Below, piece by piece: positions 18,735 through 36,368 of a stretch of DNA of 64,000 nt (positions are counted from its first letter, which is position 1; each line of letters opens with the position of its first letter). Source of the DNA: Prorocentrum cordatum (Eukaryota; Sar; Dinophyceae; Prorocentrales; Prorocentraceae); assembly GCA_963575745.1 (NCBI GenBank), contig CAUYUJ010008546.1, positions 211,469 through 275,468 on the forward strand, written 5' to 3'. Below the pieces are notes generated by a model. It was not told where the DNA came from. It searched no databases and saw only the letters and a program-made list of their open reading frames with translations. The position numbers and the translations under genes were made by a program.

Positions 18735-19110
18735 TTTTGTGATTTTGGGCCTGGTCTGAGTCCACCGGGCAACCGGCAGAACTCACGGTTCTAGGTCGGT
18801 GACTGTCTGCGAACAGGCGGCGCGCACAGGTGGTTCGATCTCTTTAGGCGATGTTGGCTTTCTTCGGAAGCAACGGGGCAACTGGTAGAAATCACCGTTC
18901 TATGTCGGTCGTTGTCTGCAAACAGGTGGCGCGCGCAGGTGGCCCGACCTAATTTGGTGATTTTTGGTCAGCTTGGAACCATACCAGCAACCGCCAGAAA
19001 TCAAAGTTCCAGGTCGGGCGATGTTTGCCAAGAGAAGGCGTGCACATTGTGTTCGATTCCATTCGGTGATTTGGGGTTCTTTCGGAGCGTATCGAGCAAC
19101 CGGCAGCCAT
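18735..19110. repeat. 109-bp tandem repeat, 3.4 units
   Basis: The anchor (G/A)GCAAC(C/T)G starts so that its AAC lies at 18771, 18880, 18989 and 19098, a constant 109-bp spacing. Units share GGTGATTTTTGGTC, CGGCAGAAATCA, GTTCTAGGTCGGT and a CAGGTGGCGCGCGCAGGTGG block. Divergence is by substitution only. Confidence 0.92.
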
Positions 19111-19554
19111 CTATTTGTTTGGCGCCATTTGCCAAGCCAGGCAAAGGGCCTCGTTTTCCTTGTGCTTCTTCTCCTCCTCCTTCTCCTCCTTCTCCTCTTC
19201 CTGCTCCTGCCGTGCTTTCTAATACTCGGGGCGCCCGCCGCTCGGCGCCGGCGGGGCGCGCCGAGCGGCCCCGTCATCCGCCGTGCCGGGCGCTGGCCTC
19301 TTCTTCTTCTTCTTGTATTTCTCCTATTCCTCCTCATTTTCATCCTCCTTTTCTTGCTCCTTTTCCTCCGTTTGCCGGGCTGTCCAATGCTCGGGCGAAG
19401 GCTTCCAGGGTTGGGCCTTTCCCTTTTCCAGGGATGGGCTACAGACACCCTCTCCACGGTTCGGTTTCCCTTTCCAGGCTTGGGATTTTCAATCCCGTTT
19501 TCGGATTTCCAGTGCTCGGCCCAAACTTTCCAGGGTTCGGACACCGACCCGTCT
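19111..19554. other. No gene recognised
   Basis: Contains CTCCTTCTCCT and TTCTTC tracts and degenerate TTTCCAGGGTT repeats. No coding support. Confidence 0.5.
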
Positions 19555-20063
19555 GCGGCGCGTCCCCTGGCATGTCCCCTGGCACGTCCCTTGGCGCGTC
19601 GCCTGGCACGTGTACTCTCGCGCCCCATGGCGCGTGCGCGGCACGCACCGGAACGCGTCCCATGGCACGGCACGTCCCAAGCGCGTCTCGTGGTACGTCC
19701 TTTGTCGCGTCCCATGCCGCTTCCCTTGGCGCGTCCCTTGGCGCGCCCCCTGGGGCGTCTACTAGCGCGTCGTCTGGCACGTCGCGCAGGACGTCCTTTG
19801 GCTCGTCTCCCGACCCGCCCCCCAGCGCGTGTCCTGTCTCGTCTCGTGGCGTTTGGCACGTTCCCTGGCGTGTCCCTTGGGCTTGTCCGTCCACTGCCAA
19901 GTCCGCTGGCACGTCCACTTTCGCGTCCCACGGCGCTTTCCCCGGCTCTGCATCTAGCGCTTGCCCTGCGCGTTCGTTGGCGCGCCCCCTGGAACGTCCC
20001 TTCGCACGTCCCTTGGCGCGTCCACGGTCGCGTCCTCTGGCCCGTCCCGTGGGACGTCTCCTC
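19555..20063. repeat. 12-bp minisatellite CCCTGGCACGTC, split by the copia insertion
   Basis: Degenerate 12-bp units (CCCCTGGCATGT, CCCCTGGCACGT, CCCTTGGCGCGT and so on). The array stops at the 5' LTR and resumes at 36135, directly after the 3' LTR, so the retrotransposon inserted into an existing array. Confidence 0.9.
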
Positions 20064-20068
20064 GCATG
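20064..20068. repeat. Target-site duplication, left copy (GCATG)
   Basis: GCATG precedes the 5' LTR and is repeated at 36130-36134 after the 3' LTR. Five bp is the usual length for Ty1/copia integration. The final G could belong to the LTR instead, a one-base ambiguity. Confidence 0.75.
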
Positions 20069-20338
20069 ACTTTAAGGGTAGCTCTTTGGGATATGTTATA
20101 GTATCGGGAGCATAGCTCGCGCGCCGTTGCCTTTGGCTCAAGGCACGCGCGCCCTATTTGCCCGGACACTTACCTTAGTGTTCGCTATGTGTTGGAAAGA
20201 TCACTACATTGATCTTATCCTATCCTACCCATCCGCTCCCCATATCGTATTCCTTCGACATGGAATTGGATGCAATGTGAGCTCATCCGCCTCCCATGGA
20301 GACGGATACTATTTGACCTACCAGGCTCACTTTGGACT
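20069..20338 (+). repeat. 5' long terminal repeat
   Basis: 270 bp, aligned without gaps to 35860-36129 at a constant offset of 15791, with nine substitutions. It starts ACTTTAAGGG and ends CTTTGGACT, so it lacks the usual TG...CA ends. It contains a hairpin (TGCCTT/AAGGCA with flanking GCGCGC arms) at about 20119-20152 that overlaps a spliced-leader-like sequence at 20124-20142. Confidence 0.95.
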
Positions 20339-22109
20339 TGGTAGCGGAGCTGGCCGCACTCTCGTGTGGTCAGCTCTTGCTCTTCTTAGCCTCATACTCT
20401 TCGGCACGATCTTCGTGACCACCTACCACCCTGCGCTACCGCTCCCAGTACGTTTACGAGGATCTATCCAAGAGCAAGAAGCAACACGAGAGGTACGACG
20501 TCTAGACAACAACATTGGTACCATATATGCTTCACCATTGCGCTACTACCAACCGCTCGGCAACGAACCAAAAGCGCAGTACCTGAAGCATGGGCGGGGA
20601 GACCCGCCAGATAGAGCGCCTCGAAGACTGGACAAGGCGCTACCCCAGCGCGGCAACGCGCCTAATAACCACCCCTATCTACACAGCCTTGGGCTGGTTA
20701 TCTTCGCTATCATATGGTTCGCGCTGGGGGCAGCAATCGGACACATGCGTCGTGGAGACAACAGTACCGATGGGCAAACACATGGCCCATATTGGGACCC
20801 TCAAGGCAACGTACCTTTCCGCGAGTACGTTTATGAGGTCAACGCGTGGTTCAACGTCACAAGCGGACGTACGACGCCACAGGCCCAAGCGGCCGCTATA
20901 CAACGCGGCCTGGGTGGCCTAGCGAGGACACTCGCCATGAGGGTACCGCCTGACATTATAAATTATGGTGCTGACATCGATGGGGTCCACACCGACCCAG
21001 TGACCTAAATCATGTTCCTCCTAAGCATGAAGTTCGAACGCCTGGGAGATGAGCGTCAGCTCACTTCCGGCACACAGCTCATCGACTTTCATGTGCCTCA
21101 CGGAGAACGAATCGATGTCACACTAACCCGATTCGAAATGGCCCGACTTGAGGCACAGTCGGTTGGATTCGACCTTCCCAACTTCCAGTTATTAACCACG
21201 ATCCTGTTCCGCGCCTTAGGCGTCGGCAACCAGCGAGCCATGCAACTCTTACAGCCACTCAATCATCAAATGCCCCGAACTCAACAACAGTATGATGAGC
21301 TGCTGGAGAGGATGCGTTCGATAGGCCACCTATCAGAACGGTCTCCTGGTAATATAGGATCTGTGTTTGGAAGGGGAAGGGGATCTGGTAGTGGAAATTT
21401 CTACACTACCTTGACCACTGAAGCCCAGCCTGGGAACGGGCCCTCAAGCATATGGGCCGATGATCCTGGAGAATCCACTGCTCTACTAGCAGGAGATCGA
21501 TCACAACCAAGCTGGGCAACCAGCCCTCCTTCTAGAGAACCACAACCACACCGTTCTCTATGGGGTGAATCAAACCCCCTAACCGACGGTGTATCCACCC
21601 ACTTGGAAGACGAGGATTTCGACTCCGGCACCGACACAGATACTATATCATCAGACGGTGTTGAAGCTTTAGATTGGTCAGATATTATGAATATGGATAA
21701 TGACAATCAGCGTGCTGAACATTTGTTTTGGTTATTTCAACAGGCTAAACGGAGGTGGAGGAGGTTCACACGAAAACCAGTGCGTCGTGTTAGGAGGAGG
21801 ATACGGAGGAGCTTCAAGGGAAAAGGTAAAGGTAAACGAGGTCGTCGGAGGTTGAACGGACGAGGCAACACGGCATTCCTCCAGAGGCTCTCAGATGAAC
21901 AATATGATGAGATATTCTTCGGGGGAAAGGGCCGTGGCCAGGGCCGTAGAGAGACCTCAGGAAAAGGCAAGGGTAGGCGGGGAAACCCGCGAGGTAGAGA
22001 CGGCCAGGTTCTTAAGTGCCATGAGTGAGACAGTACCGACCATCTTGTGAGAGATTGTCCAGCGAAGGGAAATGGAAAGGGCAGGTCGACCGAAGTCCAT
22101 TTTGGCTAA
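20127..22109 (+). pseudogene. gag: Gag, with two N-terminal membrane segments, broken by stops
   Basis: One reading frame runs from an ATG inside the LTR, through the primer-binding site, to 22109, interrupted by TAA at 21006, TGA at 22026 and TAA at 22107. Before the first stop there are two hydrophobic segments, around TLVWSALALLSLILFG and HSLGLVIFAIIWFALG. Next comes a copia Gag-like helical region with FERLGDE and AMQLLQPLNHQMP. An Arg/Lys-rich stretch follows at about 21735-21855 (residues such as RRVRRRIRRSFKGKGKGK). The end is a CCHC zinc knuckle whose second Cys codon is TGA; the later His and Cys (HLVRDC) are still readable after it. In related elements the first TAA position is a sense codon by my recollection. 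Gag would coat and package the element RNA. Confidence 0.8.
20339..20350 (+). promoter_or_regulatory. Primer-binding site (initiator-Met-tRNA-like)
   Basis: TGGTAGCGGAGC begins at the first base after the LTR. It starts with TGG (complement of tRNA CCA) and closely resembles the initiator-methionyl-tRNA primer sites used by many copia elements. Its position independently confirms the 3' boundary of the LTR. Confidence 0.85.
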
Positions 22110-22154
22110 AGTGAACCATTCATCGAATATCTGAGCCTCCAGGATTTTGACGCC

Positions 22155-23114
22155 ATGGAACAGATATTTTACACTTGGGTCAGTTGCATGAACAACGTCG
22201 ACGAGCTCGAGGCGTATGGTCATGGATTGTACGCGTACTACCTCGAGTACGTCCGCCGGTTCGTTATTGGCAACAACGAGCTCACTCCCGTGGATCACGG
22301 TACGCTGGAAAACCAGCCGTTGTCTTTCTTCGACTGGATGTTCGGGAACCCAGGCAACATCATGACCTACGAAAGCAGTGACGAGGACATCACTGTGGAG
22401 GCCTCGCCTTCCGAGGTTGAACGCAACCTCCAACCTCCACCTGAACTCCCGCCTGGAAACAGGCCTACCTATCCCCAAACTAATGAGGAACTTATAGATA
22501 TGGAGTCTCAAGCGTTTGTTCAAGCTTTCATTGCAGGTGAACCAGAGATCCCATTTGCACCCCCTGGTTCGCTTGCTCCAGGCGAGTACGGACCACGTGC
22601 ACTGCTGCAAACCCTCATGAGGATGCATGAGATACTTACCATCGCATATCCCGAGAGTCAAGAAAGCATCGAAGCTGGCATCATGATGCTGCAGGACACC
22701 GACGCCTGCGATGACTCGGAGTTAGTGTTGGCAGCTTTGACCCTCATCGACAGCGTGCATCCTGAGGACGTGCAGAGACACGTGATATACTCCCGCGGGA
22801 GATGGCGCGACGCTCTTGAAAGGGCCATCGCCATGCGCGGTCAGGCTCTTCCTCCGCCAGGATGGGGTCTCCAGGCGGTGGGACTATGGCCAAATAACAC
22901 GGCCATGCGCAACATTGCTGGGCAGCCTGTGCTCGGCAACGAGCCTGAACTGACAACCGTGCCGCCTACCCCGGGACAGCCGAGCGACGCGCAGATGCCG
23001 GCTGTGCAGGGAAACCTGCCTGTCCCGGCTGCGCCAATGGCCATCATCATTGGTAGTTCTACATCAGAAGAAGAAGAAGGCGATGGTATGAGGATGAAGT
23101 TACAGTCTTCATGA
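22155..23114 (+). CDS. Acidic Pro-rich linker ORF of the copia polyprotein
   Basis: 319 aa in the same frame as Gag, after the TAA at 22107. I recognise no domain. It begins MEQIFYTW, contains an Asp/Glu-rich middle, and ends in a Glu run before TGA at 23112. The following ORF is in the -1/+2 frame; the frame change must lie between 23057 and 23111, around a GAAGAAGAAGAAGG run, where a small indel or a slippage event is equally possible. Three GNRA hairpins fall inside it (22451, 22931, 23016), encoding GNRP, GNEP and GNLP. It is probably part of the original Gag-Pol precursor rather than a separate protein. Confidence 0.6.
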   Translation: MEQIFYTWVSCMNNVDELEAYGHGLYAYYLEYVRRFVIGNNELTPVDHGTLENQPLSFFDWMFGNPGNIMTYESSDEDITVEASPSEVERNLQPPPELPPGNRPTYPQTNEELIDMESQAFVQAFIAGEPEIPFAPPGSLAPGEYGPRALLQTLMRMHEILTIAYPESQESIEAGIMMLQDTDACDDSELVLAALTLIDSVHPEDVQRHVIYSRGRWRDALERAIAMRGQALPPPGWGLQAVGLWPNNTAMRNIAGQPVLGNEPELTTVPPTPGQPSDAQMPAVQGNLPVPAAPMAIIIGSSTSEEEEGDGMRMKLQSS

Positions 23115-26100
23115 TGGAAGTCAATGGTGAGGAAGAGGTTGACTTTGATCCTGACGAGCCTGAAGCACCATCACCATCGGCACAAGCGCCATTTGAGCCG
23201 AGCTCCAGCCAGCAGGGAAACCTGCCTCTATTGGCCGATCCACCTGGGATCGCACAGGAGCCTCCGCAGGCGCCTCCGCCGGCTACCACTCAGGCTGCTT
23301 CGGCGGCCTCTTCTGATGATAGCGCGGGTAGGTCTCGTTCCCATGCGCGCGTCAGAGGGGAGCCACACCCACAGGCTCGGCTTCCTCGTGAGTGGAGGCA
23401 AGCTGGCCCGAAAGAACACGCTCTCAGGCGAGGGGGCCAGCTGCTTCCGTATAATGACCCAAGACGCCGAAAAGGGGAACACTCGGCCTTCGGCAAGGGC
23501 AACCCTGCCTATAGGGACGCTGAGGGTAAAGCCATCCGCGGAGGCTATCAGCTTGCAACAAACATCCGCCGCCCTGAAATTGAAGAAGCGCGGGCACAGC
23601 TGCGAAACATCATCGCGGCTCGTAAGCTGCATAGGCCTCAAGCAGTTTGCGGACCTTGTTCCCAGCCGTTCCAGAACCACAGGCCGGGATGCCCTGCTGG
23701 AAACAATGAAGGTCTGAGCCCTCATAAAGAGGGCCATCCGCCGCTGATCCCGATGACACAGGACGAAATCGCAGAAGTGAATCGTCGTCTCGGGATCCTG
23801 GGCCACTTGGATCCGAAAAAGGAAGAGGAGAAGTCTACCCCGGTTCCAAGGGGAGGACTGGTGCCCATGACCCAGGAAGAGAAATACGCGCTTTTTAGTC
23901 TTCCTGGTATGCGAGGAAACTCGCCCGGCGTTTCTAGCCAGCCCCAACAACCAGAACTGACATCTAAGGATGAACAGAAGGCCCAACGTGTTGCGGAGGA
24001 CGAGGAGCGCATGCGGATAGCAGACGAACGCGCACGCGAGGCAACTCGCAAGATGTTGGAGGATTCCAACAAGATTTTCATGAAGGGGGCCAGGAAACCC
24101 CCGCCCCCACTACTTTCGAAGGCTAAGAGTGAAACTCCGGCACCGAAGTCGTCTTCGGAGGTGAAACCGAAAGCACGCTCTCAAGATCCTGGGCCAGACG
24201 TGCAGATGGAGGCGCCTCGCTCTGCAACTCCGAGACCGCCGATTGGCGCAACTCCCGCACAAGCGTCTGAGCCCAATCAGCAACCTCAGGACCCTGTGGA
24301 GGAACGGAGACGCCCGCCTAGTCGCAGCAGCTCCATTGCTAAAAGGGCGGCAGCTTTCGAGCGCACCGGGTATGCCCCTGCGCCAGCTTCGCCTGTGGCG
24401 GCCCGTTCCAAGAGGTCCGACAAAGGTGCTCTGTCTAGGGGTAACTGGGTGCCGACGATTAGGGGTAGCGCCAGTCGCGGATCACCGCGGGGAAACCCGC
24501 CGGGCGCTGCTGCTGCAGCTTCCTCCTCGTCAGGAGCCGCAGCCTCTTCAGTGACAGAGGCTCCTGCGCGGGGAAACCCGCCCGTGGATCAGCTGCACCA
24601 CCCAGGAGACGCGCCCTTCACCAGCGGGACTCCGAGTGTGATCAGGGATAGACTTGCTTTGCGGAAGCCCCCACCGATACGCTCGGTGGACGAGGCATTC
24701 ATGAAGAAATGCAGGCAAGCAAACATCGTCCCTAGATCCAATCACACTCTCAAGCAGCTGAGTAAAGCTCTCAGCAGGATATGCAGACATGCGCCAGAAA
24801 AACCACGCAACCCTGTGTGGGACCTGGCTTCCTTCGATGATCATGATGGTTGGGTTAACCTCGTGGAGCTCGTGAATGATTATCCGTGGAACACAGGAAA
24901 AACGAGACACGACGGGTATAATCCCAGACATGACGAGGCCAAACTCATCAATGCGAACCTATATGCTCGCACGGTTGACCAACTGGCAGCCATCATGATG
25001 GAAGTGGTTCATGTCCGTGAACCAGACGGAGAAGAAAAACAGCGCCTTCAGTTCAAGGTGTTAATGCGGGACTCCGGTGAGCCCGAGATCTTCATCCGCG
25101 CCTCTCAGGGGCATTCATGGACATTGAAAGCTCCATGGTCGCTGTACAACTATATTGTACTGTGCGACCAACCTGCCGGGAGACCGGCCCCGTGCCCCGA
25201 AGTCGCCATGCATGGCACTCGGTGGTATGCCTTCGAAGGCATTATGTGGCACGGCTTGTCCTGTAGACCCGAGCACAACACGAAGAAACGGGGGACAGGC
25301 CGGTCGCGCATCCACTTCGTGCCGACGGTCCGCCGTCGTGCCGTAAACAGCGGGTGGGACCCAGACTCCGACATCATCATCTTCGTAGATTGGCATAAGG
25401 CCATGCAAGATGGCATTAAGTCCTGTTGGTCTGATAACGGAGTCCTTTTGTCCGAGGGAAATAGCGGTATCATCGAACCGTGCTACATTTCCCATGTAGA
25501 GGACCTTGCCACGGGGAAGCACTGGCGCAATCCAGAGTACCTGGGGGATCGCTGGGTGCGTGTCCCCCCCGCTGTTCTGTCGGCCCCTGGCAGGTGGGCT
25601 GACGTTGGCAGTGCCAGCGTCAAACACCAGTGGTCCCGAGACCAAGAGGGCGTCGACCCTCCCATGGTCTACCTCCACAGGGAGGTTGGGGACCACTACA
25701 GTCCCGCCATGCTGGGAAACCAGCCTGAGGTCCACCAGATCTTCATGATCACCGAGAGTGAGGCCGGGAGCGCGGCTCCAAGCCGCGCCCCAAGCCAAGG
25801 GCCTAGCGCCGTGTCTTGGCAGGCCATCAGCACCTCGGACTTGGACCAGATAGCGGCCGCTCTGAACCCTGAACAGGTGGAGCAATTGGCGGATAGGTTA
25901 TATAAACAGGACCCCTGGGCCGCAGGCCAGGGAGCAATGTCCGCCATGGCGACGCGAAATCGTCAGGCCATGCAGGGAAACCTGCCTATAAATGGACTCA
26001 GAGCTGAGATGCCTGAGCCGCAGGGAGACCCGCAGACGTTCGGCCGAATCTTTGGAGAGCCTGCTCGATTTGAGCAGATGCATGGGAGCCCCTCGCAGAG

Positions 26101-26803
26101 CATGCACACACCGAGGGGCATGACCCCAATGGCTACGCCACCTGCGCAGTCTCCGTTCGGGACTCCTGGCCGCCCTGCCACGAACGGCACCCTCATGGAG
26201 AGGATCGCAGCGGCTACGGCCGAGCATGGTACAGCTCTCCTGAACATGATGCCGCCCGGCGCTCCAACGAGTCAGCAGGAAAACCTGCCCGGCACCCCAA
26301 GCCATCATCGACCGTTTACTGGACAAACCACAGTCGCTGGTGTGCCTGATGACTACCGTGCAAGAGTGGCGGCCGCTGTACAGCAGGTGCAGAGCCATAA
26401 TCTGCCTCACCCAAGTGGTCAGAGGTGGAGGCCGGCCTGGTCCTGGGAGCCTGAGGGTCCCAATCCAAGGGATCCTGCTCGGCAACGAGCCTTCATCCCC
26501 GCCTTTAATGCTCACCCGAGCATGGCCCAGGGCCAGAGGCCACCGCCAGCACACATGAATCCGCCACTGTACCCTGATGGATCTAGAGTCCCGAACAAGT
26601 TTGTTCGTGAAATGGCGGATCAGTTTCACAGCCTCACTAACGTGCGCTGTAGTGATCAGTCTATGTATCCGCACATGGCATTTATGCCTGCGCCGACGAC
26701 GCCAGATGTGGCTGTCCAGCCCACTGCCCATTCGATATCGTCTGGCAGTAGAGGTGTGCCTGACTACATCAGGCAGACATACCACTCAACCGGCATGCTT
26801 TAG
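23111..26803 (+). CDS. Polyprotein segment with Tpt1/KptA RNA 2'-phosphotransferase-like domain
   Basis: 1230 aa. Residues 1-540 and 810-1230 are low-complexity Pro/Ala/Gln/Ser-rich. Residues about 548-800 match the Tpt1/KptA fold by motifs in order: LSKALSRICRH (R559, H560), DGWV, IRASQGHSW (R663), HGT (H701), SRIHF, IIIFVD, AMQDG and NGV (N776), ending near a GIIEPCYI block. Tpt1 enzymes move the internal 2'-phosphate of spliced RNA to NAD; some also ADP-ribosylate RNA 5' ends. By my by-eye alignment, the fourth catalytic Arg of the family (the SGMR position of animal TRPT1) is Asp750 here (SGWD), so activity may be lost or altered. The ORF ends at CTT-TAG, after which the next domain continues in the +1 frame. 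Ten GNRA hairpins lie inside it or across its end region. Confidence 0.8.
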   Translation: MMEVNGEEEVDFDPDEPEAPSPSAQAPFEPSSSQQGNLPLLADPPGIAQEPPQAPPPATTQAASAASSDDSAGRSRSHARVRGEPHPQARLPREWRQAGPKEHALRRGGQLLPYNDPRRRKGEHSAFGKGNPAYRDAEGKAIRGGYQLATNIRRPEIEEARAQLRNIIAARKLHRPQAVCGPCSQPFQNHRPGCPAGNNEGLSPHKEGHPPLIPMTQDEIAEVNRRLGILGHLDPKKEEEKSTPVPRGGLVPMTQEEKYALFSLPGMRGNSPGVSSQPQQPELTSKDEQKAQRVAEDEERMRIADERAREATRKMLEDSNKIFMKGARKPPPPLLSKAKSETPAPKSSSEVKPKARSQDPGPDVQMEAPRSATPRPPIGATPAQASEPNQQPQDPVEERRRPPSRSSSIAKRAAAFERTGYAPAPASPVAARSKRSDKGALSRGNWVPTIRGSASRGSPRGNPPGAAAAASSSSGAAASSVTEAPARGNPPVDQLHHPGDAPFTSGTPSVIRDRLALRKPPPIRSVDEAFMKKCRQANIVPRSNHTLKQLSKALSRICRHAPEKPRNPVWDLASFDDHDGWVNLVELVNDYPWNTGKTRHDGYNPRHDEAKLINANLYARTVDQLAAIMMEVVHVREPDGEEKQRLQFKVLMRDSGEPEIFIRASQGHSWTLKAPWSLYNYIVLCDQPAGRPAPCPEVAMHGTRWYAFEGIMWHGLSCRPEHNTKKRGTGRSRIHFVPTVRRRAVNSGWDPDSDIIIFVDWHKAMQDGIKSCWSDNGVLLSEGNSGIIEPCYISHVEDLATGKHWRNPEYLGDRWVRVPPAVLSAPGRWADVGSASVKHQWSRDQEGVDPPMVYLHREVGDHYSPAMLGNQPEVHQIFMITESEAGSAAPSRAPSQGPSAVSWQAISTSDLDQIAAALNPEQVEQLADRLYKQDPWAAGQGAMSAMATRNRQAMQGNLPINGLRAEMPEPQGDPQTFGRIFGEPARFEQMHGSPSQSMHTPRGMTPMATPPAQSPFGTPGRPATNGTLMERIAAATAEHGTALLNMMPPGAPTSQQENLPGTPSHHRPFTGQTTVAGVPDDYRARVAAAVQQVQSHNLPHPSGQRWRPAWSWEPEGPNPRDPARQRAFIPAFNAHPSMAQGQRPPPAHMNPPLYPDGSRVPNKFVREMADQFHSLTNVRCSDQSMYPHMAFMPAPTTPDVAVQPTAHSISSGSRGVPDYIRQTYHSTGML

Positions 26804-26805
26804 GC
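26798..26805 (+). promoter_or_regulatory. Candidate +1 frameshift site, CTT-TAG-GC
   Basis: The zero-frame codons are CTT then TAG. Skipping one T puts the ribosome exactly in the frame of the next polyprotein segment (AGG CGC AGA ...). The layout resembles the bacterial prfB site CUU-UGA and the Ty1 site CUU-AGG-C. A fixed indel is the alternative. Confidence 0.45.
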
Positions 26806-28976
26806 GCAGACAGGCCGTGCAGAACGTACGTGATCATTCGCGTGCAGCCGCGCTTGAGGTTGTGAGGAACAGAGGCTCACCCTTGCGAGGGAACTCGCCC
26901 GCTGCGACGCCTACAGCCTCCGCGCCAGCTGCCAGGGTGCCGGAGGTGCTGGATCCAGTAGTGGATCCCCCAGCAGCCTTCATGCCCTCCGAGACGGTCT
27001 TGGAGAGACAGCGGCGGGTATGTCCCAGAGCAGCAGATGTGGAAGTTTTCACTGGGATGGAAGATACCTGCGCGGTATGTCTCGAGGAATTCCAGCCCAG
27101 GGAAAGTGTTTACCGTTTGAGGTGTAATCACTTATTCCATGAGGGGTGCTGGAATTCAAATGTGGTGGGCCATGTCGCAAATCAGCGCGAGGGAGATCCT
27201 CAGCAGCCACCATGTGCTATCTGCCGAGCACCCGGCATCATAGCGTCATCATTCCCGTGGACCGGCTCCTTCATTCAGACTCCTGAGCAAGCAGCGAGAG
27301 AGCTGCGGGAGTTGAGGAACACGGTGGAGGAGATGACAGCCAGGATGCTAGATCGGCAGACAGCTCAGCCCCAGCAGCAGGGAAATCTGCCAGAGGAGGT
27401 GAGGCCGCCGATGGAGACGGGATACTTCGATCAGCTTATCCCGATGACGGCGCCTCAGCAGGGAAACCTGCCTAATACTCCTCAGATGTCTCCCCAGAGT
27501 GGGGGCGGGGCAGAGATGGCACTGGACCCTGACCAGCTGCGTAAGTTGCGTGTTCGGCATTTCCAGAATCAAATGGATAATGCGCACGCAACCTTTATGC
27601 TGGATGCCGATAATCCTGAGACTGATGGTCCGTCGTTTGACCTCTCAGATTCCTCAGTGGCAACAGCAGCAACAGCAGCCAGGGCCGTCGATATCACAGC
27701 GACGAACGAGGAGTTCGAGGAATGGCTGCAATACAGGGATCACCTCACGAATGAGGGGTTGCAGGACATTGCCCTTCACTCGTATCTGACGCTGGCGAGA
27801 CGCACGACCCGCGAGCAGTATAAGAGCATACGTGATGAGTATGCCAACTGGCGGGAGGAGCGCGGCGATCACGTCCAGCACGTGTCGTACTTCCAGGACA
27901 TCGACCTGGTGCGTGTGGCCGAAGGCAGGCCGTATGCCAGCGTCATGCGGGGCAACCCGCCAGGGAGTGCGACCGACTCGCGGGGAAACCCGCCTGACGG
28001 CACAGCCGACACTTCAGAAACGGTGCACATCAAGCAGCCGAGTAAGACGTTCCTGGATGATGGTGGAAATTCCATCCTCATCGATGTAGGCTCGAAGATC
28101 AACATCATGGGTGAGAACACGAGCCGCAAGTTCGTCCAGGCTGCTGAGGCACGCGGCCGTACTTGTACGTTCGAGCCCCGCTCTCGTTTGAATGTCAACG
28201 GACTGGGAGAAGGGTCGGCCCCAGCGGATACCGTAGGCACATTCAGCATTGCCTGCGAGTACCAGGGGTCGACCCAGCTCGATTCATACAAGACGAACAT
28301 TGTGTCAGGCTGTGGCAAAGACCTGCCGGCCATCCTAGGCCTCGATGGTATGCAGGACAAACGCACGATCATTGTTCTTGAGCGAGGCCAGGAGAAGCTG
28401 ATATTCCCTGGGAAGGGGCAGGTCAAAATGGGGCTCCCCGAGGGCTCCAAGATCATGCCGACGACGAAGTTGCCGTCAGGGCATCTGTCGATCAGGTGTG
28501 ATCGCTTTGGAGCCGCGGGGCAACCCGCCTCGAGCTCGAGCAGCACGTCATTTCAGACGGTGCTGACGGGCGAGCCGACCCCGGCGCAGGAGCGCGAGCA
28601 ATTGCAGGGAAACCTGCCTCAGGGGTTGATGGAGACGCTCGCCAAGGCCACTATGCGAGGCGACAGCATTGACGATCTCGAAACGTTCGATTGCTTTGTT
28701 GCCAGGACGCTGGCCCAGCATGGTGGAAGTGTGCCCATGGACGCTGTGCGGTCCCGCCGGAAGATAGTGATGGGGTACACTAACCGTGAGCTGCAGACGG
28801 TCAGCTACGCTAGGTCCAAAGGCGTGCTGAAACAGCTGATGGATAATCCATCCATGCTGACAGCATTTGCGGAGCAATCCGCCTCTGAGGCCACGGCGCG
28901 CTGCAGTGCTGAGCTCCAGCATCTGAGGGAAGCCCAGATGCTGGCAGACATTGCAGGCACATCTTCTTTATCTTGA
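26802..28976 (+). CDS. Polyprotein segment with RING-H2 finger and retropepsin
   Basis: Continues in the +1 frame from the Tpt1-like segment; the frame itself is open from 26577. A RING-H2 finger lies at about 27066-27238: CAVC, then CNHLFHEGC, then CAIC, the C-x2-C ... C-x-H-x2-H ... C-x2-C pattern of E3 ubiquitin ligases. A retropepsin-like aspartic protease lies at about 28050-28470: ILIDVGSKINIMG (D with V where T or S is usual) and the downstream ILGLDGM motif. The protease would process Gag-Pol as a dimer; the unusual D-V-G may lower activity. The segment ends at TCT-TGA. Seven GNRA hairpins lie inside it, one of them (28515) in a different reading register from the usual GNxP. Confidence 0.75.
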   Translation, partial: RRRQAVQNVRDHSRAAALEVVRNRGSPLRGNSPAATPTASAPAARVPEVLDPVVDPPAAFMPSETVLERQRRVCPRAADVEVFTGMEDTCAVCLEEFQPRESVYRLRCNHLFHEGCWNSNVVGHVANQREGDPQQPPCAICRAPGIIASSFPWTGSFIQTPEQAARELRELRNTVEEMTARMLDRQTAQPQQQGNLPEEVRPPMETGYFDQLIPMTAPQQGNLPNTPQMSPQSGGGAEMALDPDQLRKLRVRHFQNQMDNAHATFMLDADNPETDGPSFDLSDSSVATAATAARAVDITATNEEFEEWLQYRDHLTNEGLQDIALHSYLTLARRTTREQYKSIRDEYANWREERGDHVQHVSYFQDIDLVRVAEGRPYASVMRGNPPGSATDSRGNPPDGTADTSETVHIKQPSKTFLDDGGNSILIDVGSKINIMGENTSRKFVQAAEARGRTCTFEPRSRLNVNGLGEGSAPADTVGTFSIACEYQGSTQLDSYKTNIVSGCGKDLPAILGLDGMQDKRTIIVLERGQEKLIFPGKGQVKMGLPEGSKIMPTTKLPSGHLSIRCDRFGAAGQPASSSSSTSFQTVLTGEPTPAQEREQLQGNLPQGLMETLAKATMRGDSIDDLETFDCFVARTLAQHGGSVPMDAVRSRRKIVMGYTNRELQTVSYARSKGVLKQLMDNPSMLTAFAEQSASEATARCSAELQHLREAQMLADIAGTSSLS

Positions 28977-28977
28977 A
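28971..28977 (+). promoter_or_regulatory. Candidate +1 frameshift site, TCT-TGA-A
   Basis: The upstream frame stops at TGA 28974-28976; the downstream frame (+1) is open only from 28927, so the change has to happen within 50 nt. TCT-TGA is close to the antizyme-type UCC-UGA site. Mutation is the alternative. Confidence 0.35.
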
Positions 28978-31386
28978 GATGGCAGGGCGACGTCGCCCCC
29001 ATCGTCGTCTTGCCTGTTGGCCGAAAAGCCGGGGGGTAACAAGGGCAGCGGGGTAACCTGCCTTAGTAAGAGGGCTTTTGTCATTGAAGATACGAGAGAG
29101 GCTTGCGCCGACCTCCGCACCCGAGGTTATATCTGTGATCGTATTTCCCACAATGAACTTATGACGGGTGTGGGCACAGATTACCTGGGTGCGGTGATCA
29201 GTGGAGATTACACTCTCATATGGATCAGTACCCCGGGTGACTGGTATGTACGAACTCCAGGAAAGAGAGTGGCCCCACATTGGTCACGTATCCAGAACCT
29301 TTTGATAAAAGCCAGGAAACTCCGTATGAAAATCATAATATTTGGTCCCCCAGGATATGTTTGGAAGTTATCTCCAGTACGTGATACTCTGTAAGATCTT
29401 AAGCTGTCAGTAGTACGGATGCGTTTGTGTCATTTCGGTATTCGGTTCAATATGCAAGACAGTACACCGAGTGGTACTTATATGCAGGTAGCGACATCAA
29501 TACCGATAAGCTCGAAGCTGTGGGCATGTACATGCAAACAAGCAATACCACAACATGTGTTGGATTGGTACGGCCATACGGTACGGCATGCTGAATGGCG
29601 AGCTCAGACACGTACTACACTCATCCGTCATCTGAACGACAAAATCCTGGGGAGCACCACCACGCACGGAAACGTGCCTGTATATCTGAACACCTATACA
29701 CGTACGGACCACAACATCCATCACTACGTGACGACCAACAAGGGAGGACCGAAATGGTCTGATGTTATCCGACGTGTAACGATTAACCTGGATACCAATG
29801 CGGTTATTCAGGATATCTCGGTCGCCGATCAACCAACAGGGTATGATTGGCATGCACTACTACCTGCAGGGGTTGCCAACATCAGCACTCGGTTGCATTG
29901 GCAACCCGGGGAACCGGTCTTGCTCGGAAGCGAGCCTACTCAATCACCACAGAAACCTCGACGCGTCATCATAGATGACTGTTCTCTCCCCCTCCCGACT
30001 CTGGCGATTGACGCATGTGCCCACTCAACCACGACAATGGGCACACAGACCGGCGAACAAAACGAGCAAGTTTTACCTACAGAATCTCGTATCAAGCAGA
30101 AGGAAAGGCTCGAAGCCGAAAAGGAAGCAGGCATCAAGCCTCGCCGCATTAAAAAGCACGTCGAAGACGGAAACGACGATTGCGGCGACGACTTGTCAGG
30201 ACTCGGACAGGATCTTATGGCGACCTGGAGTACTGACGTCCCTATTGAGCTGATAAGCTCCGATGAGGACGATGACCTGTTCCTTGCCCTCCCCACATCT
30301 ATGCCCGACACACACGCTAACATATACAGCATAGTCGCTACACTATGCTATGGTCATAACAACTACGTGGATATGTTGGAGCTTTGTGGCGGGGAGGGTG
30401 GTATCTCAGAGCTTGCCTTCTCAAGGGGGCTCTCCTCAGGAGGCAACCTAGACAAGGCCGCATATGTCGACCTGGGAGACCCCTCGGTGCAGCGGGTTGT
30501 AGATCATTACTTCGCTATATGCTACGTGCGAGTTGCCATGCTACAACCCAGTTGCCGCACCACGGGACCACCATCCTACTACAACTACAAAGTCAATCAC
30601 AACGCTTGGGAACAGCACCACAAAGAAGATTTACCACACATAACTTACTGTGGTAAAATTGCTGTTGCCCAAGATGACGCTCGGAGGTGGTTTATACGCG
30701 AACAACCTACAGGAACATGGGTGGATGATATTCCCCCATGGAAGAAACTTGCCAACCGACCACACATTACAACCGTGCGCATTGACCAGTGTGCTACGGG
30801 ACTCAAAGATACGGCTGGAGACTATATTAAGAAGCCGACAAATATCACCAGCAATGACGAGACGATTCTTAAACCCATTGAGCGACTCAAATGCAACGGT
30901 CAGCATGTGCACGCACAACCATGCAACAAAGAGCTTTCACTGGCACAAAAATACACTCGACGATTGCAGTCTGCCTTTGTGGAAGCCGTCTATCTGGCGA
31001 AAGCCATTGATACTACGCGCGGAAACGCGCCTACAAGTACTGCACATGCTTACCCTGCCGACCTTCCCGATCAAGCTGAACCAGGCGAAGGTATGAGACG
31101 CATCGGTGATCGCATCATCCCAAAGGTGGCCACCTGCCCGGCATGCATCGACAACGTCCGAAAGGATAATCCTAGCCATAACAGAGACCCTACGCAGTGT
31201 AAGTATCATGATTCCATCTCTGTATATTGGCCATGTCCCGCATGCCAGAGGGATCTTACGAGAAGCAAAGGTGTTAAGAACCACCTTGATACCGAACCTG
31301 GTAAATGTCGTTTTGCTGAACCATTTAAACTTCCAGACGACCACGACCCCGAAGGCAAAACCGTACCAGCTTGGTGGAAATCCTGA
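28975..31386 (+). pseudogene. Polyprotein segment with methyltransferase-like domain and Zn fingers
   Basis: Open in one frame from 28927 apart from TAA at 29392. Residues before the stop contain LIWISTPGDW and IIIFGPPGYVWK; those after it contain HFGIRF and LDWYG, both typical of dinoflagellate copia polyproteins by my recollection. A Rossmann-type block at about 30370-30780 has LELCGGEGGISELA (SAM-binding-like motif I), QPSC (in the place of the C5-methyltransferase PC motif) and REQPTGTW (in the place of ENV/ENP). DNA methyltransferases captured by dinoflagellate retrotransposons have been described. Two C-x2-C modules (CPAC twice, with following C and H residues) lie at about 31135-31320. 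The segment ends at TCC-TGA. Confidence 0.6.
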
Positions 31387-31387
31387 C
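31381..31387 (+). promoter_or_regulatory. Candidate +1 frameshift site, TCC-TGA-C
   Basis: Zero frame reads AAA TCC TGA; skipping the T gives GAC CTA AAC CTG, the frame of the integrase segment. The hexamer TCCTGA is the one used by ornithine decarboxylase antizyme. Both frames are open from 31106 to 31386, so an indel elsewhere in that interval remains possible. Confidence 0.45.
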
Positions 31388-33556
31388 CTAAACCTGGTGA
31401 GGGCCAAGCTTCAGCTTCAGGTGGCCGCCAAGGCGCACGCGCCAGGCCACCGCGACCACGATCCTTCGGTAACGTTGATCCGACATCTGGTGCCAGCAGT
31501 TACGACATGCTACGAGACGCCCCCGAGCGTGGAAACACGCCTTCCTGCGTCCTCTAGCGAAGCGCCACAGATAGCGGCCCGTCGTGGCCGCCCACAAGGC
31601 GCACCACCACCACCAGATGCAGTTGACGAAGGAGACCGACTGCGGAGAGCCACAAGGAACCCTCTTGCCTCTACCGGCTCGGGGGCTCCACGACTACCCG
31701 ACTGGACGAGATTCGATATCCAACGCAGTCTGCAAAATCTCCGTAGTCACGAACCTCATGTCGTTAAAAAGGAACTCCGTAAACTGCACCTGCGCTGGTA
31801 TCATGCGAAGGAACCCAGGATGAGGCTAATCCTAGACAAAGTGGGGCTGGATAACGTTCGACTGAACATGATCAAAGAAGTTTGCGACACCTGTCGGGAA
31901 TGCAGAGCATGGGAACGTCCAGGAAACTCAACACTACCTTCGGTGAGCCTTCCTGGTAACTGGCTCGATGAAGGCGAAATGGATCTCATGTTTTACAAGA
32001 AACGGACCATATTTCACATTATGGATCGTTGTATTCGCCTGGCAGCAGGCCAAGAAATTTCCGACAGAGAACGCGATGCTATCCTTGACGCCTACCACTA
32101 CTGCTGGATTGCCTATCGTGGACCCTTCAAAGTCTTATACTCAGACGGAGAAGGCGCCCTGAACAATGATGCCGCTAAGGCCATGATGGCCAATAAGGGC
32201 ACGGAACTTCGCATCCGAGCGCCTGGCCAACGCGCGACTTCAATTGAATCACGAAACGGCATTCTCAGAGGCGTCTTCCACATGATTGAGGAAGAGCTGA
32301 ATAGACACAACATCCCTGTTGTATTCACTAGAGTATTGGCGGAAGGCATCTTCGTTACCAATGCCTTTACGTTTTACCACGGAGTATCGCCATACCAAGC
32401 ACGCACAGGACGTCAGCCCTCCTTTCTTCCTGACCTCGACACCCTTGACTTTCCCAAGGGGCCCGAGACATCAGGACACGAACGAGAACGTCGTGTGAGG
32501 GAAGTTCGCCTAGAAGCCATAACTCAAGCCACTGCTGCGGCCAAGACAAATCGTGCTCTTAGGGCTAAAACGGCTCCTGATGGTGCCCGCCTTTACTCTG
32601 CAGGGGATTTGGTCGACTACCATCGACCCACTGCCACTGAGGACGATCATGGAGGCTGGAATGGCCCATTCCCGGTGATCCGTAATGTGCCTGAAAGAGG
32701 ACATATTGTTGTCAAGGCAGGATCTCGTGAGGTAATCGTGATGTATCCTGATGCTCGTCACACACTAGACATTGAATGTCTCCTCGCACGGGAACTTGGC
32801 ATGGATAATATGGCCATGCAAACCGTCCTTACATATGTGGCACACCTCGGCGCAGGGAAACCTGCCAAAGTTTTCGGCTATACCCCAGATTACAAGGGAA
32901 ACCTCAATCTTTCAGACGACAGCAAGTTTCACCCGCGCGTACATCTAGCACTACAGTATCTCGTGCAAAACTACTTCCGAGTAGAACATGTAGTAGCAGT
33001 TAGATTGGCCAAAAGTGTGTCAAGCCTACCTGTAGTAAAGTACGCCACCGGGTCTGCGCTGATCCACTATGACAGCGATATCAGCCCAGCTTTCCACTAC
33101 TACGAGTGTGTGGGCACTGGCCTAAACATTTCTCAGATCACTGGTAGCACTCATTCCAGACTTATTCGATGCTTGACTTCACGTGTCCCTTCCTTAGGAT
33201 TTCACGACGACCTGGCTAAATATCAGCACTCAAGCAACACGTCTGGAGAACACGATTCGCTTGGAAACAGGCCTCCTCCAGATACCCCAGGTGCTTCATC
33301 GCCGAGTGAAGGCCGTCTGTCGACAATCTATGAGGAAAATGAGGAACATAATATCGAAGCTATGATTCTGGAAGAGTGGTACGACGAGCTACGTATGGAT
33401 CTTATCCTACGACGACTACCGACGATTATCTCTACTGCGTCCCAACAACCATGCTGCCCGACCAATGTGTTTTGGTTTCAGCATCTGTGGACGAAGAAGA
33501 TATCATATCATCGGACACGCTCGGAGACGAGCCTGAACCACGAAAGTCCTGTCTAG
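31385..33556 (+). CDS. Copia integrase
   Basis: About 724 aa. An HHCC zinc-binding region lies at 31780-31905 (LHLRWYH ... CDTCREC). The catalytic core has D at 31982 (GEMDLMF), D at about 32144 (LYSDGEGAL) and E at about 32246 (SIESRNG), about 34 residues after the second D, the D,D-35-E pattern of retroviral integrases. All three acidic residues are present. A C-terminal GDLVDYHRP and GGWNGPFPV block at about 32605-32680 resembles the GKGY/SH3-like tail. Integrase inserts the cDNA into the host genome. The frame stops at 33554; the RT continues in the -1 frame, with the change near 33380-33420, probably a mutation. Confidence 0.9.
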   Translation, partial: DLNLVRAKLQLQVAAKAHAPGHRDHDPSVTLIRHLVPAVTTCYETPPSVETRLPASSSEAPQIAARRGRPQGAPPPPDAVDEGDRLRRATRNPLASTGSGAPRLPDWTRFDIQRSLQNLRSHEPHVVKKELRKLHLRWYHAKEPRMRLILDKVGLDNVRLNMIKEVCDTCRECRAWERPGNSTLPSVSLPGNWLDEGEMDLMFYKKRTIFHIMDRCIRLAAGQEISDRERDAILDAYHYCWIAYRGPFKVLYSDGEGALNNDAAKAMMANKGTELRIRAPGQRATSIESRNGILRGVFHMIEEELNRHNIPVVFTRVLAEGIFVTNAFTFYHGVSPYQARTGRQPSFLPDLDTLDFPKGPETSGHERERRVREVRLEAITQATAAAKTNRALRAKTAPDGARLYSAGDLVDYHRPTATEDDHGGWNGPFPVIRNVPERGHIVVKAGSREVIVMYPDARHTLDIECLLARELGMDNMAMQTVLTYVAHLGAGKPAKVFGYTPDYKGNLNLSDDSKFHPRVHLALQYLVQNYFRVEHVVAVRLAKSVSSLPVVKYATGSALIHYDSDISPAFHYYECVGTGLNISQITGSTHSRLIRCLTSRVPSLGFHDDLAKYQHSSNTSGEHDSLGNRPPPDTPGASSPSEGRLSTIYEENEEHNIEAMILEEWYDELRMDLILRRLPTIISTASQQPCCPTNVFWFQHLWTKKISYHRTRSETSLNHESPV

Positions 33557-35469
33557 TCTCTCTCTGCTCAACCACACCTGACGAGAGCTACTCTCTTGAC
33601 AGTGATGAATATGGTCCTTACGTTGAGTTATGTTTTACATCAGAAATGTCAAAAGTAGTGTTGGATCAGACTCAACTTGCACAGCTCGACACCGATATGG
33701 TCGCAACGATGAGAGTATATGTATCCTCTGCTGCTAAACGTGCTGTGGTCGTTAAAGAAGATGACCTACTCACCAAAGCCGACATAGCAGCACATCCAAA
33801 GGAGGTTAGTGAAGCTTTGTATACTGAACTCAAAATCTGGATTGACAGCCGATGCTTTGAGATGTATGATTTATCCAAAGCTTCCAACATCATGACATCC
33901 AGGTATGTATACAAGTGGAAGTTTGTAAAGGTGGGTACCGAGAACGTTAAAACCATTCGTCTTAGACTTGTCCTTCGTGGATTTATGGATACTGAGGCTT
34001 TCGACGTGGAAACATGCTCGGGAACCGCCCGAAGGCAGTCCCAACGACTCCTGGCAATTGAGGCGGCATGCCATCCAGAGTGGGTCTTAGCATCCATGGA
34101 TATCGACAAGGCGTTCCTCAAGGGTTTGACCTATGAGGAACTTGCCCATGCCACCGGCGAGGGAACTCGCATGGTCTGCTTCACTCTTCCACCGGGAAGT
34201 GCCCAGGTACTTCGTACATTACCCGGCTTCTCATCCTATGACGAAAGCCGACGCTGCCTCAGGTGCCTCAAACCAGGAACGGGCACAAAGGACGCCCCCA
34301 GATCTCTCAAACTTCGTACGACCACACGAGCTATAGGCCTTACACCGACCAGCTATGATCCTGAATTTGAATTCAGCCAAGATCTGCTAACGGCAAAACA
34401 TGTCGATGGTATTAACATGACAGGCCTAGAGAAAAATATAGACGATTATGTACAGCGTGTCGAAAAGGTGTTTGGCACATGCAAGCTCAACAAACACACA
34501 TATACGAACTGCGCCGTTCGCTACAGTAAGAATGATCAAGGGGATGTGATCATGGATCAGGACGAGTATATTAAACAACTACGTCCTATCACACGCCCAG
34601 AACTTACAGGAGCGGCGGCCGATGCCAAAGCCACGAAACTCATTACCGACATGTTCGTCAGCTTGCGAGGAGCCCTCGCCTATGCCCTTCTTACTCAAAT
34701 CTGGCTCATGGTATACGTGGTCTCTCTCCAGAAAGTCCAAGAGCCCACCAATCTGCAAGTCGGGCGTCTGAATGCTGTGACGCGAAAGCTGATCAGCAGC
34801 CCGAAACGCATCACCTTCCCTCGGATGAAGCCGACGAATGAAGTTGACATCCACAGCGATTCGGGGCATCGGAAGCTCACCGGGGAGGATGATGATGAGA
34901 CCAAGGGCTACGGCATACGCGGGGCTAATGTACTACGGCGAGGAAACTCGCCTCAAGGCAAGTCCGTCGTTCACCTCTGTGACGGACTATGCAAATCACA
35001 CCGACTGCAGATGAGGTCCAGCTATGCTGCGGAGGCACTCACAGCTGCGCATAACCTCGATGAGTGTTACCCTACGCTCATCACTCTCCACGAGCTCAAG
35101 GCAGGAGCTCTGACTCCACGACAACTACGAGATATGCGTGAAGTTGGAGGCCTAGCCATCAAATTATCTCTTACCATAGACGCTGAGTCCGTTTATAAAT
35201 CATTATCAAGTAAGGATCTTAAGATACCGACAGAGCGGACTCTGTTTGGACATATCAGTTGGATACGTGAGCTCATGGATATAGGTATAGTACATAACGT
35301 GCAGTGGTGTGATACTAGGGATATGACCGCAGACGGGCATACAAAGGGAAGCATCGATCGGGAGCTGCTTCTGGAAGTGATGTCAGGCACTCAGTCATTC
35401 AAGCACGACGTGAAGCAGTTTGTTCCCTTTCGGGGTCCCGAGGACAGAAACAAACCCAAGTCTAATTAA
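33376..35469 (+). pseudogene. Copia reverse transcriptase and RNase H, RT active site altered
   Basis: 697 aa in the frame following the integrase. RT motif A is intact: SMDIDKAFLKG, D at 34099. Motif C reads KHVDGINMTG where copia RTs have xxDD; the second Asp codon is GGT at 34408-34410 (one A-to-G from GAT). The RNase H domain has all four acidic residues: HSDSGH (about 34858), AAEAL (about 35030), TIDAES (about 35180) and CDTRDMTADGHTKG (about 35320). The frame ends at TAA 35467 with a C-terminal VKQFVPFRGPEDR tail. The rest of the domain is well preserved, so loss of the motif C Asp is probably recent. Confidence 0.85.
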
Positions 35470-35859
35470 TTTTAGTCTGTCCTTGTTGCCCCCCCCCGCG
35501 GTCCAATTTGCCAGCATGGGCGCCTACTACAGAGGCGCCCTTCTAGTTGCTCGGAAACGAGCCTGACATTTCACGCCTGGCAACGAGACGGCTTTATATG
35601 ACTCAGGCTCTTTGCCTTAATACTTATGTGCTCGGTGAGGTATGGCCCGTTTGGCTTACCTCTAACTGAGCCGATAGCCCTTCATCGTTCGAAGGGGCTA
35701 TTTTGTATTTGCGTGAAATGCCTTGCGAGGAAACTCGCCTTACAGTCTGGTGTTAGGCCAGACTGTACACACTGTTTTCTTTCTTGCAAACAGTTGTGCG
35801 CGCGGCCTTTGTAGAGCCTAACGGCTGCGCGGCTATGCTCTCCGTCTCCTCCCCTCCCG
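35470..35859 (+). other. 3' untranslated region with a chain of stem-loops
   Basis: After the pol stop there are five stem-loops in 250 nt: GGGCGCCT/AGGCGCCC with a 7-nt loop (35518-35540), a GNRA hairpin (35549-35562), a 9-bp stem ATAGCCCTT/AAGGGGCTAT with one wobble (35674-35701), a GNRA hairpin (35725-35738), and a 10-bp stem TACAGTCTGG/CCAGACTGTA with a 7-nt loop (35741-35767). The last 20 nt before the 3' LTR are pyrimidine-rich, not a polypurine tract. Confidence 0.8.
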
Positions 35860-36129
35860 ACTTTAAGGGTAGCTCTTTGGGAGATGTTATAGTATCGGGA
35901 GCATAGCTCGCGCGCCGTTGCCTTTGGCTCAAGGCACGCGCGCCCTATTTGCCCGGACACTTACCTTAGTGTTCGCTATGTGCTGGAAAGATCATTACAT
36001 CGATCTTATCCTATCCGACCCATCCACTCCCCATATCGTATTCCTTCGACATGGAATTGGATACAATGTGAGCTCATCCGCCTCCCATGGAGACGGATGC
36101 TATTTGACCTACCAGGCTCACTTTCGACT
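35860..36129 (+). repeat. 3' long terminal repeat
   Basis: 270 bp, 96.7% identical to the 5' LTR. It is followed by GCATG at 36130-36134 (target duplication) and then by the 12-bp minisatellite. Confidence 0.95.
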
Positions 36130-36134
36130 GCATG
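36130..36134. repeat. Target-site duplication, right copy (GCATG)
   Basis: Identical to 20064-20068. The flanking 12-bp array is continuous if the element and one GCATG are removed. Confidence 0.75.
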
Positions 36135-36268
36135 CTCCCTGGCGTGTCCCCTGGCGCGTCTCCCGGCGCGCCCCTCGGCACGTCCCGCAGCGCATCCCCT
36201 GGCACATCACCTGCGCGTTTCCCTGCACATCAAATGACGCGCCCCTCGCACGTCCTGCGGCACGCCCA
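36135..36268. repeat. 12-bp minisatellite, right side of the copia insertion
   Basis: Units such as CCCTGGCGTGTC, CCCTGGCGCGTC and CCCTGGCACATC continue the array interrupted at 20064. Confidence 0.88.
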
Positions 36269-36368
36269 TGCGCCCCCTGTCGGGACGCTTCTCTTCGGCA
36301 CTGAATCGGATCTTGAGCGTGAGCTGGTTGGGCGCCCGTCACGTTTCGACTACAAGCAGCTCTTGGCG
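36269..36368. other. Spacer before the tyrosine-recombinase element
   Basis: About 100 bp between the minisatellite and the A1 repeat; no feature seen. Confidence 0.5.

Follow-up and report, generated by a model that had tools for sequence, protein, structure and literature searches.

The 64,000-nucleotide stretch of Prorocentrum cordatum DNA analysed here (contig CAUYUJ010008546.1, positions 211,469 to 275,468; hereafter the window) contains a Ty1/copia retrotransposon of about 16 kb, whose internal region (20351-35848; 15,498 nt, ~15.5 kb) carries a family of short hairpins with a variable but paired stem and a fixed class of loop. Every occurrence of the pattern GCNNGNNNNCNNGC in the window was listed, a strict rule requiring GCNNG-GNRA-CNNGC with all five pairs formed and a looser rule leaving the closing pair free. 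The strict rule gave 34 hairpins in the internal region, all on the + strand. The window's family is termed F1, C2 and C15 being other F1 copies, and F2 is a sister family (see below):

20594-20607, +, hairpin GCGGG-GAGA-CCCGC
20648-20661, +, hairpin GCGCG-GCAA-CGCGC
21428-21441, +, hairpin GCCTG-GGAA-CGGGC, one G-U
21511-21524, +, hairpin GCTGG-GCAA-CCAGC
21977-21990, +, hairpin GCGGG-GAAA-CCCGC; F2 keeps the peptide RRGNPR without the hairpin
22451-22464, +, hairpin GCCTG-GAAA-CAGGC
22931-22944, +, hairpin GCTCG-GCAA-CGAGC
23006-23019, +, hairpin GCAGG-GAAA-CCTGC
23212-23225, +, hairpin GCAGG-GAAA-CCTGC
23911-23924, +, hairpin GCGAG-GAAA-CTCGC; GCGGG/CCCGC in the C15 copy, compensatory
24036-24049, +, hairpin GCGAG-GCAA-CTCGC
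24487-24500, +, hairpin GCGGG-GAAA-CCCGC
24568-24581, +, hairpin GCGGG-GAAA-CCCGC
25175-25188, +, hairpin GCCGG-GAGA-CCGGC
25711-25724, +, hairpin GCTGG-GAAA-CCAGC
25972-25985, +, hairpin GCAGG-GAAA-CCTGC
26477-26490, +, hairpin GCTCG-GCAA-CGAGC
26885-26898, +, hairpin GCGAG-GGAA-CTCGC
27458-27471, +, hairpin GCAGG-GAAA-CCTGC
27947-27960, +, hairpin GCGGG-GCAA-CCCGC
27980-27993, +, hairpin GCGGG-GAAA-CCCGC
28515-28528, +, hairpin GCGGG-GCAA-CCCGC
28604-28617, +, hairpin GCAGG-GAAA-CCTGC; aligned with GCGGG-GCAA-CCCGC in F2, compensatory, in a gappy alignment
29048-29061, +, hairpin GCGGG-GTAA-CCTGC, one G-U
29664-29677, +, hairpin GCACG-GAAA-CGTGC
31017-31030, +, hairpin GCGCG-GAAA-CGCGC
31527-31540, +, hairpin GCGTG-GAAA-CACGC
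32852-32865, +, hairpin GCAGG-GAAA-CCTGC; aligned with GCGGG-GAAA-CCCGC in F2, compensatory
33259-33272, +, hairpin GCTTG-GAAA-CAGGC, one G-U; faces a 12-nt gap in F2
33519-33532, +, hairpin GCTCG-GAGA-CGAGC
34157-34170, +, hairpin GCGAG-GGAA-CTCGC within the reverse transcriptase; F2 of equal length, no hairpin
34938-34951, +, hairpin GCGAG-GAAA-CTCGC; GCGTG-GCCA-CACGC in F2, stem compensated and loop switched
35549-35562, +, hairpin GCTCG-GAAA-CGAGC, 3′ noncoding region
35725-35738, +, hairpin GCGAG-GAAA-CTCGC, 3′ noncoding region

No strict-rule hairpin was found on the - strand of the internal region, in either of the two long terminal repeat (LTR)-like repeats that flank it or anywhere on the two strands of the window's other ~48 kb, where the original prediction had also seen none. 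Markov shuffles (order 2-4, 300 each) gave a mean of 0.02-0.05 hairpins with a maximum of 1, against which the paired sense-strand family that had been predicted is real and of the extent described, except that its first copy at 20594 lies slightly before the claimed start at 20648. Under the looser rule the sense strand of the F1 element holds 33 GNAA, 3 GNGA and 1 GNCA hairpins and the antisense strand 1 GNGA and no GNAA, with 1 GNAA (+) and 3 GNCA (1 +, 2 -) in the rest of the window, so that the background is not quite empty. No GC-capped GNRA hairpin was present in six other genome loci of ~3 kb around chance matches. Across both strands of the 4.13-Gb genome (21,875 contigs) GCNNGGNAACNNGCC, with pairing not required, occurs 48,759 times compared with 8,775 for the reversed pattern. 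Base composition as the cause is rejected by the shuffles and the background counts. Rfam 15 covariance models gave no match at the gathering threshold in 20000-36300.

The inner two stem pairs take 13 paired combinations, of which 10 are purely Watson-Crick (ten stem combinations had been claimed), and the G-U pairs predicted at 21428, 27377, 29048 and 33259 are present. The base 3′ of the hairpin is C in 31/34 with the base 5′ being G in only 4/34, and the helix is therefore usually exactly 5 bp. Local folding with 40-200 nt of flank formed 27-29 of the 34 hairpins at a probability of at least 0.5, the number varying with flank length. In F1, spacing is more even than random placement (coefficient of variation 0.68 vs 0.96, P = 0.012). 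Sites at 22304, 26275 and 29922 (loop) and at 27377 (G-U closing pair) are imperfect in the window copy, each having its perfect form in one or both of two sister copies. A candidate at 32037 (loop GCAG) was judged from copy and homologue comparison to be probably coding only.

The original prediction, which described the hairpins in one retrotransposon, missed that sister families in the same genome carry hairpins with other loops. For each of the sister families F2, F3 and F4 the evidence comes mostly from a single long copy, supplemented by shorter second copies. In F2 (C669 and C1), the reverse transcriptase (RT) is 69% identical to that of F1 in protein and 67% in DNA, and its 15,282 nt hold 38 GC-capped paired GNCA hairpins on the sense strand and none on the antisense strand (shuffles 0.13), with 7 GNAA, 1 GNGA and 1 GNTA as additional sense hairpins. 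Where F1 and F2 hairpins align, the stem has changed with pairing preserved at 28604 (gappy alignment), 32852 and 34938, with the loop at 34938 switching from GAAA in F1 to GCCA in F2. Hairpins in 18-nt tandem steps were observed in F2 at L045 3351-3620, 5019-5050 and 6210-6241. In the more distant F3 (C14074; RT 39% identical to F1), the 12.8 kb read contained no GC-capped GNRA or GNCA hairpin. When loop lengths were scanned, 7-nt loops proved to be in excess, with the motif NNNGG-RUYGGNN-CCNNN, the sense strand holding 17 cores, 16 with all outer pairs and in 8 stem combinations, and the other strand 1 unpaired core (order-3 shuffles 0.01). In a second F3 copy 7/7 cores were paired in 2.8 kb, plus 1 in the RT region. 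In F4 (C18155; RT 31% identical to F1), no hairpin excess was detected at loop lengths 3 to 12 in 9.6 kb (z at most 1.5), although the scan would have missed hairpins of other geometry, which F4 may have.

In the unbiased scan the standout loop length was 4 in F1 (z 11.2, consensus GaAA), 4 in F2 (z 16.9, GcCA) and 7 in F3 (z 6.3, aTCGGca), with milder excesses at other loop lengths in F1 and F2 (z up to 4.7). The hairpins are a trait of the clade, each of three families in this genome having one predominant loop class. The absence of hairpins from related elements had been named in advance as evidence against the prediction; for GNRA hairpins this is literally the case in F3, and also in F4 as scanned, with F3 having a hairpin family of its own. 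L046/L047 proved to be F2 again, and a search with P0010 again matched F1-like copies. A search of viral contigs by RT alignment gave 11 pattern matches and no confirmed locus. At the protein level a paired-hairpin signature gave 18 motif matches among 35 proteins, 14 of them pairing-compatible and suggestive in P0001 and P0002, being too permissive to count.

That the pairing itself is maintained was examined by arm permutation, with 100,000 shuffles per family. In F1, where the loop, its G-C closing pair and the outer GC served as anchors, 34/35 sites pair at both free positions (permuted mean 8.7, maximum 19). The paired sites number 38/41 in F2 (mean 18.4, maximum 28) and 16/17 in F3 (mean 3.8, maximum 12). 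Repeated peptides (GNxP, AGSPA, RGHP) or composition might otherwise have produced the hairpins incidentally, and it fits this explanation that 24 of the 34 F1 counts in open reading frames (ORFs) share the GNxP phase under the looser rule, with 10 in the two other phases. However, when codons were shuffled with the proteins kept (500 shuffles each for F1 and F2), the 34 hairpin counts in F1 ORFs compared with a mean of 3.7 (maximum 9) and the 42 in F2, where ORFs overlap, with a mean of 1.4 (maximum 5); in both the phase and the shuffle counts 33519 was counted in two overlapping ORFs and 29048 lay outside the ORFs used. Synonymous shuffling of the hairpin-holding ORFs of F3 likewise mostly lost the hairpins. 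The hairpins at 35549 and 35725 lie beyond the stop of the last ORF, as had been claimed. Arm permutation, synonymous shuffles, the copies in other phases and the two noncoding copies all contradict the peptide explanation, which we regard as barely credible.

A function at the level of DNA, as a binding site or cruciform, has in its favour that GNA-type loops are stable in DNA as well. It is countered by the strand bias (GNAA 33 vs 0 in F1, GNCA 38 vs 0 in F2) and by a variable stem sequence with pairing kept, which suits a single strand, be it of RNA or perhaps of cDNA; a DNA-level function is considered quite improbable.

Comparison between copies is in keeping with selection on the RNA. 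Over 31904-35848, 33 loci were compared with the window, of which 31 cover the stretch; hairpin sites differ at 72/3038 positions (2.4%) and other sites at 7047/118,945 (5.9%), 58 of the 72 hairpin differences falling at two sites at which nearly every other copy disagrees with that of the window. Within the 3′ noncoding part the 31 copies differ at 4/868 hairpin positions (0.46%) and at 988/10,881 other positions (9.1%). Over the whole element, hairpins diverge by 6.3% and their 30-nt flanks by 14.6% in the C2 copy, and by 4.6% and 19.1% in C15, with 30/34 hairpins intact in C2 and 29/34 in C15 (GC-cap, GNNA loop and all pairs). Compensatory changes are found among F1 copies at 22304, 23911 and 27377, and the closing pair of 35725 is compensated in C15 though the C15 loop is no longer GNRA. 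At 21977 RRGNPR is encoded by both F1 and F2 and the hairpin is in F1 only, and at 34157, where E stands in 16 of 17 aligned RT homologues (34 found), the window has T, the residue being replaced where the hairpin stands. As such the F1 hairpins are under selection at the RNA level beyond protein coding, in agreement with the earlier claim that protein selection is insufficient, for which arm permutation, synonymous shuffles, noncoding conservation and compensatory changes all speak; a repeated protein motif as their cause is rejected on the first three. Conservation of the structure by such selection holds for F1 and F2, and for F3 by pairing and synonymous shuffles only.

The origin of individual hairpins bears on whether a short self-spreading insert, useless to the element, could account for them. 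Where F1 has the hairpin at 33259, in a poorly conserved part, F2 has a 12-nt gap. In F3, a stretch beginning with hairpin 9109 shares 96% identity over 46 nt with a hairpin-led stretch elsewhere in the second F3 copy and faces a gap at the homologous place of that copy. Both are as expected of a mobile micro-hairpin. It appears from such alignments that some hairpins were gained via insertion or local duplication. Hairpins at 129-nt and 42-nt steps were also seen in F3 (L052 5488-5846), a spacing that suggests multiplication by local duplication. Nonetheless, 34157 and 21977 were gained or lost through substitution, the former differing from F2 at conserved codons with no indel and the latter by synonymous changes. 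Since some hairpins face gaps and others arose or vanished by substitution, there are probably several routes of gain, with selection retaining the hairpins. The low divergence of the hairpins, about 20-fold less in the noncoding region, argues against purely selfish spread, as do the compensatory stem pairs, and we think a self-spreading insert improbable.

The other features of the window copy are as follows:

20058-20338, +, 5′ LTR-like direct repeat, 268/281 identical to 35849-36129
21009-22025, +, Gag-like ORF, arginine-rich region from ~21744
23057-26800, +, ORF with a Tpt1/KptA RNA 2′-phosphotransferase domain (PF01885, E 2.1e-22)
26559-28973, +, RING finger ORF (PF17123, E 1.2e-8)
31097-33553, +, putative integrase region ORF, assigned by position
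33352-35466, +, copia RT/RNase H ORF (PF07727, E 1.4e-6; 34 homologues)
35849-36129, +, 3′ LTR-like direct repeat, from direct-repeat comparison

The direct repeats (281 nt, 95.4% identical, 15,791 apart) flank the element as LTRs do; no clear pair of TG..CA ends or target-site duplication was found at them, and the exact repeat ends are approximate. Several reading frames are broken in the window copy, among them Gag, which stops within the zinc-knuckle region, with the C2 copy reading on through the knuckle. The RT is of copia type, its PF07727 score of 28.6 bits falling just below the Pfam cut-off of 31.6 and that of the F2 RT (40.8 bits) above it, and PF07727 is present in 24/34 RT homologues. 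The ORF preceding RT has tblastn matches in all four families and no Pfam match. F1 is numerous, with 13,300 RT candidates at first look, of which the best 63 were scored. A ~12-bp tandem array of the CGTCCCYTGGCG type stands on both flanks of the element (19549-20070 and 36121-36220), as if it were the insertion target, and long CT-rich and GT-rich low-complexity stretches occur at 16569-18740 with repeats spaced ~500 bp and ~300 bp.

The Tpt1/KptA domain (24750-25460) is unexpected for a retroelement. F2 has the same gene content as F1, namely KptA (E 2.1e-22 in F1, 1.1e-16 in F2), RING, RT and a zinc knuckle, the last just below the Pfam cut-off, and a weak RING match below the cut-off is seen in F3. 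Among 8000 scored candidates for each, the KptA ORF had no protein homologue and the RING ORF one, P0035 of P. cordatum (1207 aa, UniRef name arginine ADP-ribosyltransferase), which is 94% identical over 12% of the ORF and may be an annotated fragment of the window element. The presence of Tpt1/KptA in both F1 and F2 raises the question of whether the hairpins serve a cycle of hairpin cleavage, ligation and 2′-phosphate removal, or otherwise target host RNA metabolism or defence. RNA ligase and RNA endonuclease are absent from the Pfam matches, and F3, which has hairpins, showed no KptA in a scan of four of its ORF ranges; we doubt strongly that the hairpins have such a target.

We give about an even chance to the reading that the hairpins are dispersed packaging or assembly signals of a giant Ty1/copia clade, carried on the sense genomic RNA and read by each family's own Gag. 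They would act as repeated cis-acting elements on that RNA, each having a stem of 5 bp and a loop of fixed class (GNRA in F1, GNCA in F2, RUYGGNN in F3), and as the free stem positions covary it is the closed helix plus its loop that would be read. Many molecules of the element's own Gag would bind the dispersed hairpins, their binding selecting and condensing the ~15-kb RNA into a virus-like particle, with host RNA and the RNA of sister families kept out. A protein reader, its identity as Gag and packaging as the result are our inference. The candidate reader is, from its sequence, the conserved arginine-rich region of Gag followed by a CCHC knuckle; the basic stretch (...AKRRWRRFTRKPVRRVRRRIRRSFKGKGKGKRGRRR in F1) is conserved in F2 and F3, with the knuckle following it in F2, F3 and the C2 copy of F1. 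For 34-45 sites over 15 kb, gathering many Gag molecules on the right RNA would be the most natural role. Of the ideas first offered, packaging or dimerisation signals and boxB-like sites for an arginine-rich protein fit best together.

The hairpins may instead be family-specific RNA tags for another step, such as dimerisation, nuclear export, control of translation or frame, priming or strand transfer, or protection from decay. The whole of the RNA-level evidence fits such tags equally well, and any element protein that differs between families could read them. Such steps, however, generally call for a single site or a small number in set positions, and the F1 sites lie in every one of the eight tested ORF ranges as well as the 3′ noncoding region, with none in the LTR-like repeats, so that we hold a role in another step to be rather unlikely.

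Packaging by each family's own Gag also has several observations weighing against it. F4 has a Gag with a related KKRWRRFTGRPTRFHRFG stretch and no hairpin excess was found in F4, so the basic region is not predictive of hairpins and the notion that the Gag arginine-rich region occurs only where hairpins do is weakened. Between 5 and 7 of the 34 hairpins fold with a probability below 0.5 with 40-200 nt of flank. Pairing is not kept throughout, as 2 stem pairs of the 34 sites are broken in C2, which also lacks one hairpin through deletion, and 3 in C15. A crude comparison of the two F3 copies showed little protection (hairpins 31/221, other sites 1293/7888), the F2 and F3 hairpins stand partly in tandem duplicates and so are not all independent, and the 7 GNAA hairpins kept by F2 mean that the loop code is not absolute.

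Beyond packaging as such, the loops may form a family-specific hairpin code with dozens of like-built RNA tags per element genome, in which self/non-self labels separate the RNAs of coexisting retrotransposons, loop and reader change together and loop switching takes part in the birth of families; we lend this somewhat less than even credence. If true, it would amount to orthogonal self/non-self labelling among the coexisting retrotransposons of one nucleus. Little is understood of how a retrotransposon picks out its own RNA from many related ones, and most dispersed packaging signals proposed for viruses have loose motifs. The hairpin motif of these elements is strict, with 34 (F1) to 45 (F2, both loop classes) per element and covariation visible in the sequence, and at least three loop versions in one genome with many copies provide a natural series of specificity switches, which together make the packaging idea directly testable.

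A literature search, mostly outside subscription journals, found no description of such hairpins in a retrotransposon. The boxB of lambdoid phages is a 5-bp hairpin with a GNRA-like loop that is bound by the arginine-rich N peptide, present once or twice per operon in the control of antitermination. A likeness to boxB would lie in the 5-bp stem and the GNRA loops of F1, with F2 and F3 having GNCA and a heptaloop instead. In gammaretroviruses the GACG kissing hairpins are a few short conserved tetraloop hairpins in the 5′ leader of the genomic RNA, unlike the dozens that F1 has along its RNA. Ty1 (copia/Pseudoviridae) belongs to the same superfamily as the window element, as judged by RVT_2, and its Gag faces the same task of selecting its own RNA. 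An excerpt of a published account (PMC8396678) describes Ty1 as having a packaging signal and a pseudoknot, with a Gag whose RNA specificity is low and becomes dependent on Psi under competition; dispersed hairpins such as those of the window element are not mentioned in that excerpt (PMC8396678). The nearest known kind is the dispersed packaging signals of single-stranded RNA viruses (MS2, parechovirus and the pregenomic RNA of hepatitis B virus) and the assembly that they mediate, in which, according to part of one account, many stem-loops across the genome share a loop recognition motif with variable stems (PMC6281560). The genomic RNAs of F1, F2 and F3 likewise carry many stem-loops along their length that have a loop motif in common within the family. 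The viral signals bind coat protein, whereas binding by Gag is here a prediction from sequence. The F1-F3 motif is also, in our judgement, much stricter than that of the viral signals, belongs to an LTR retrotransposon and differs in loop class from one family to the next.

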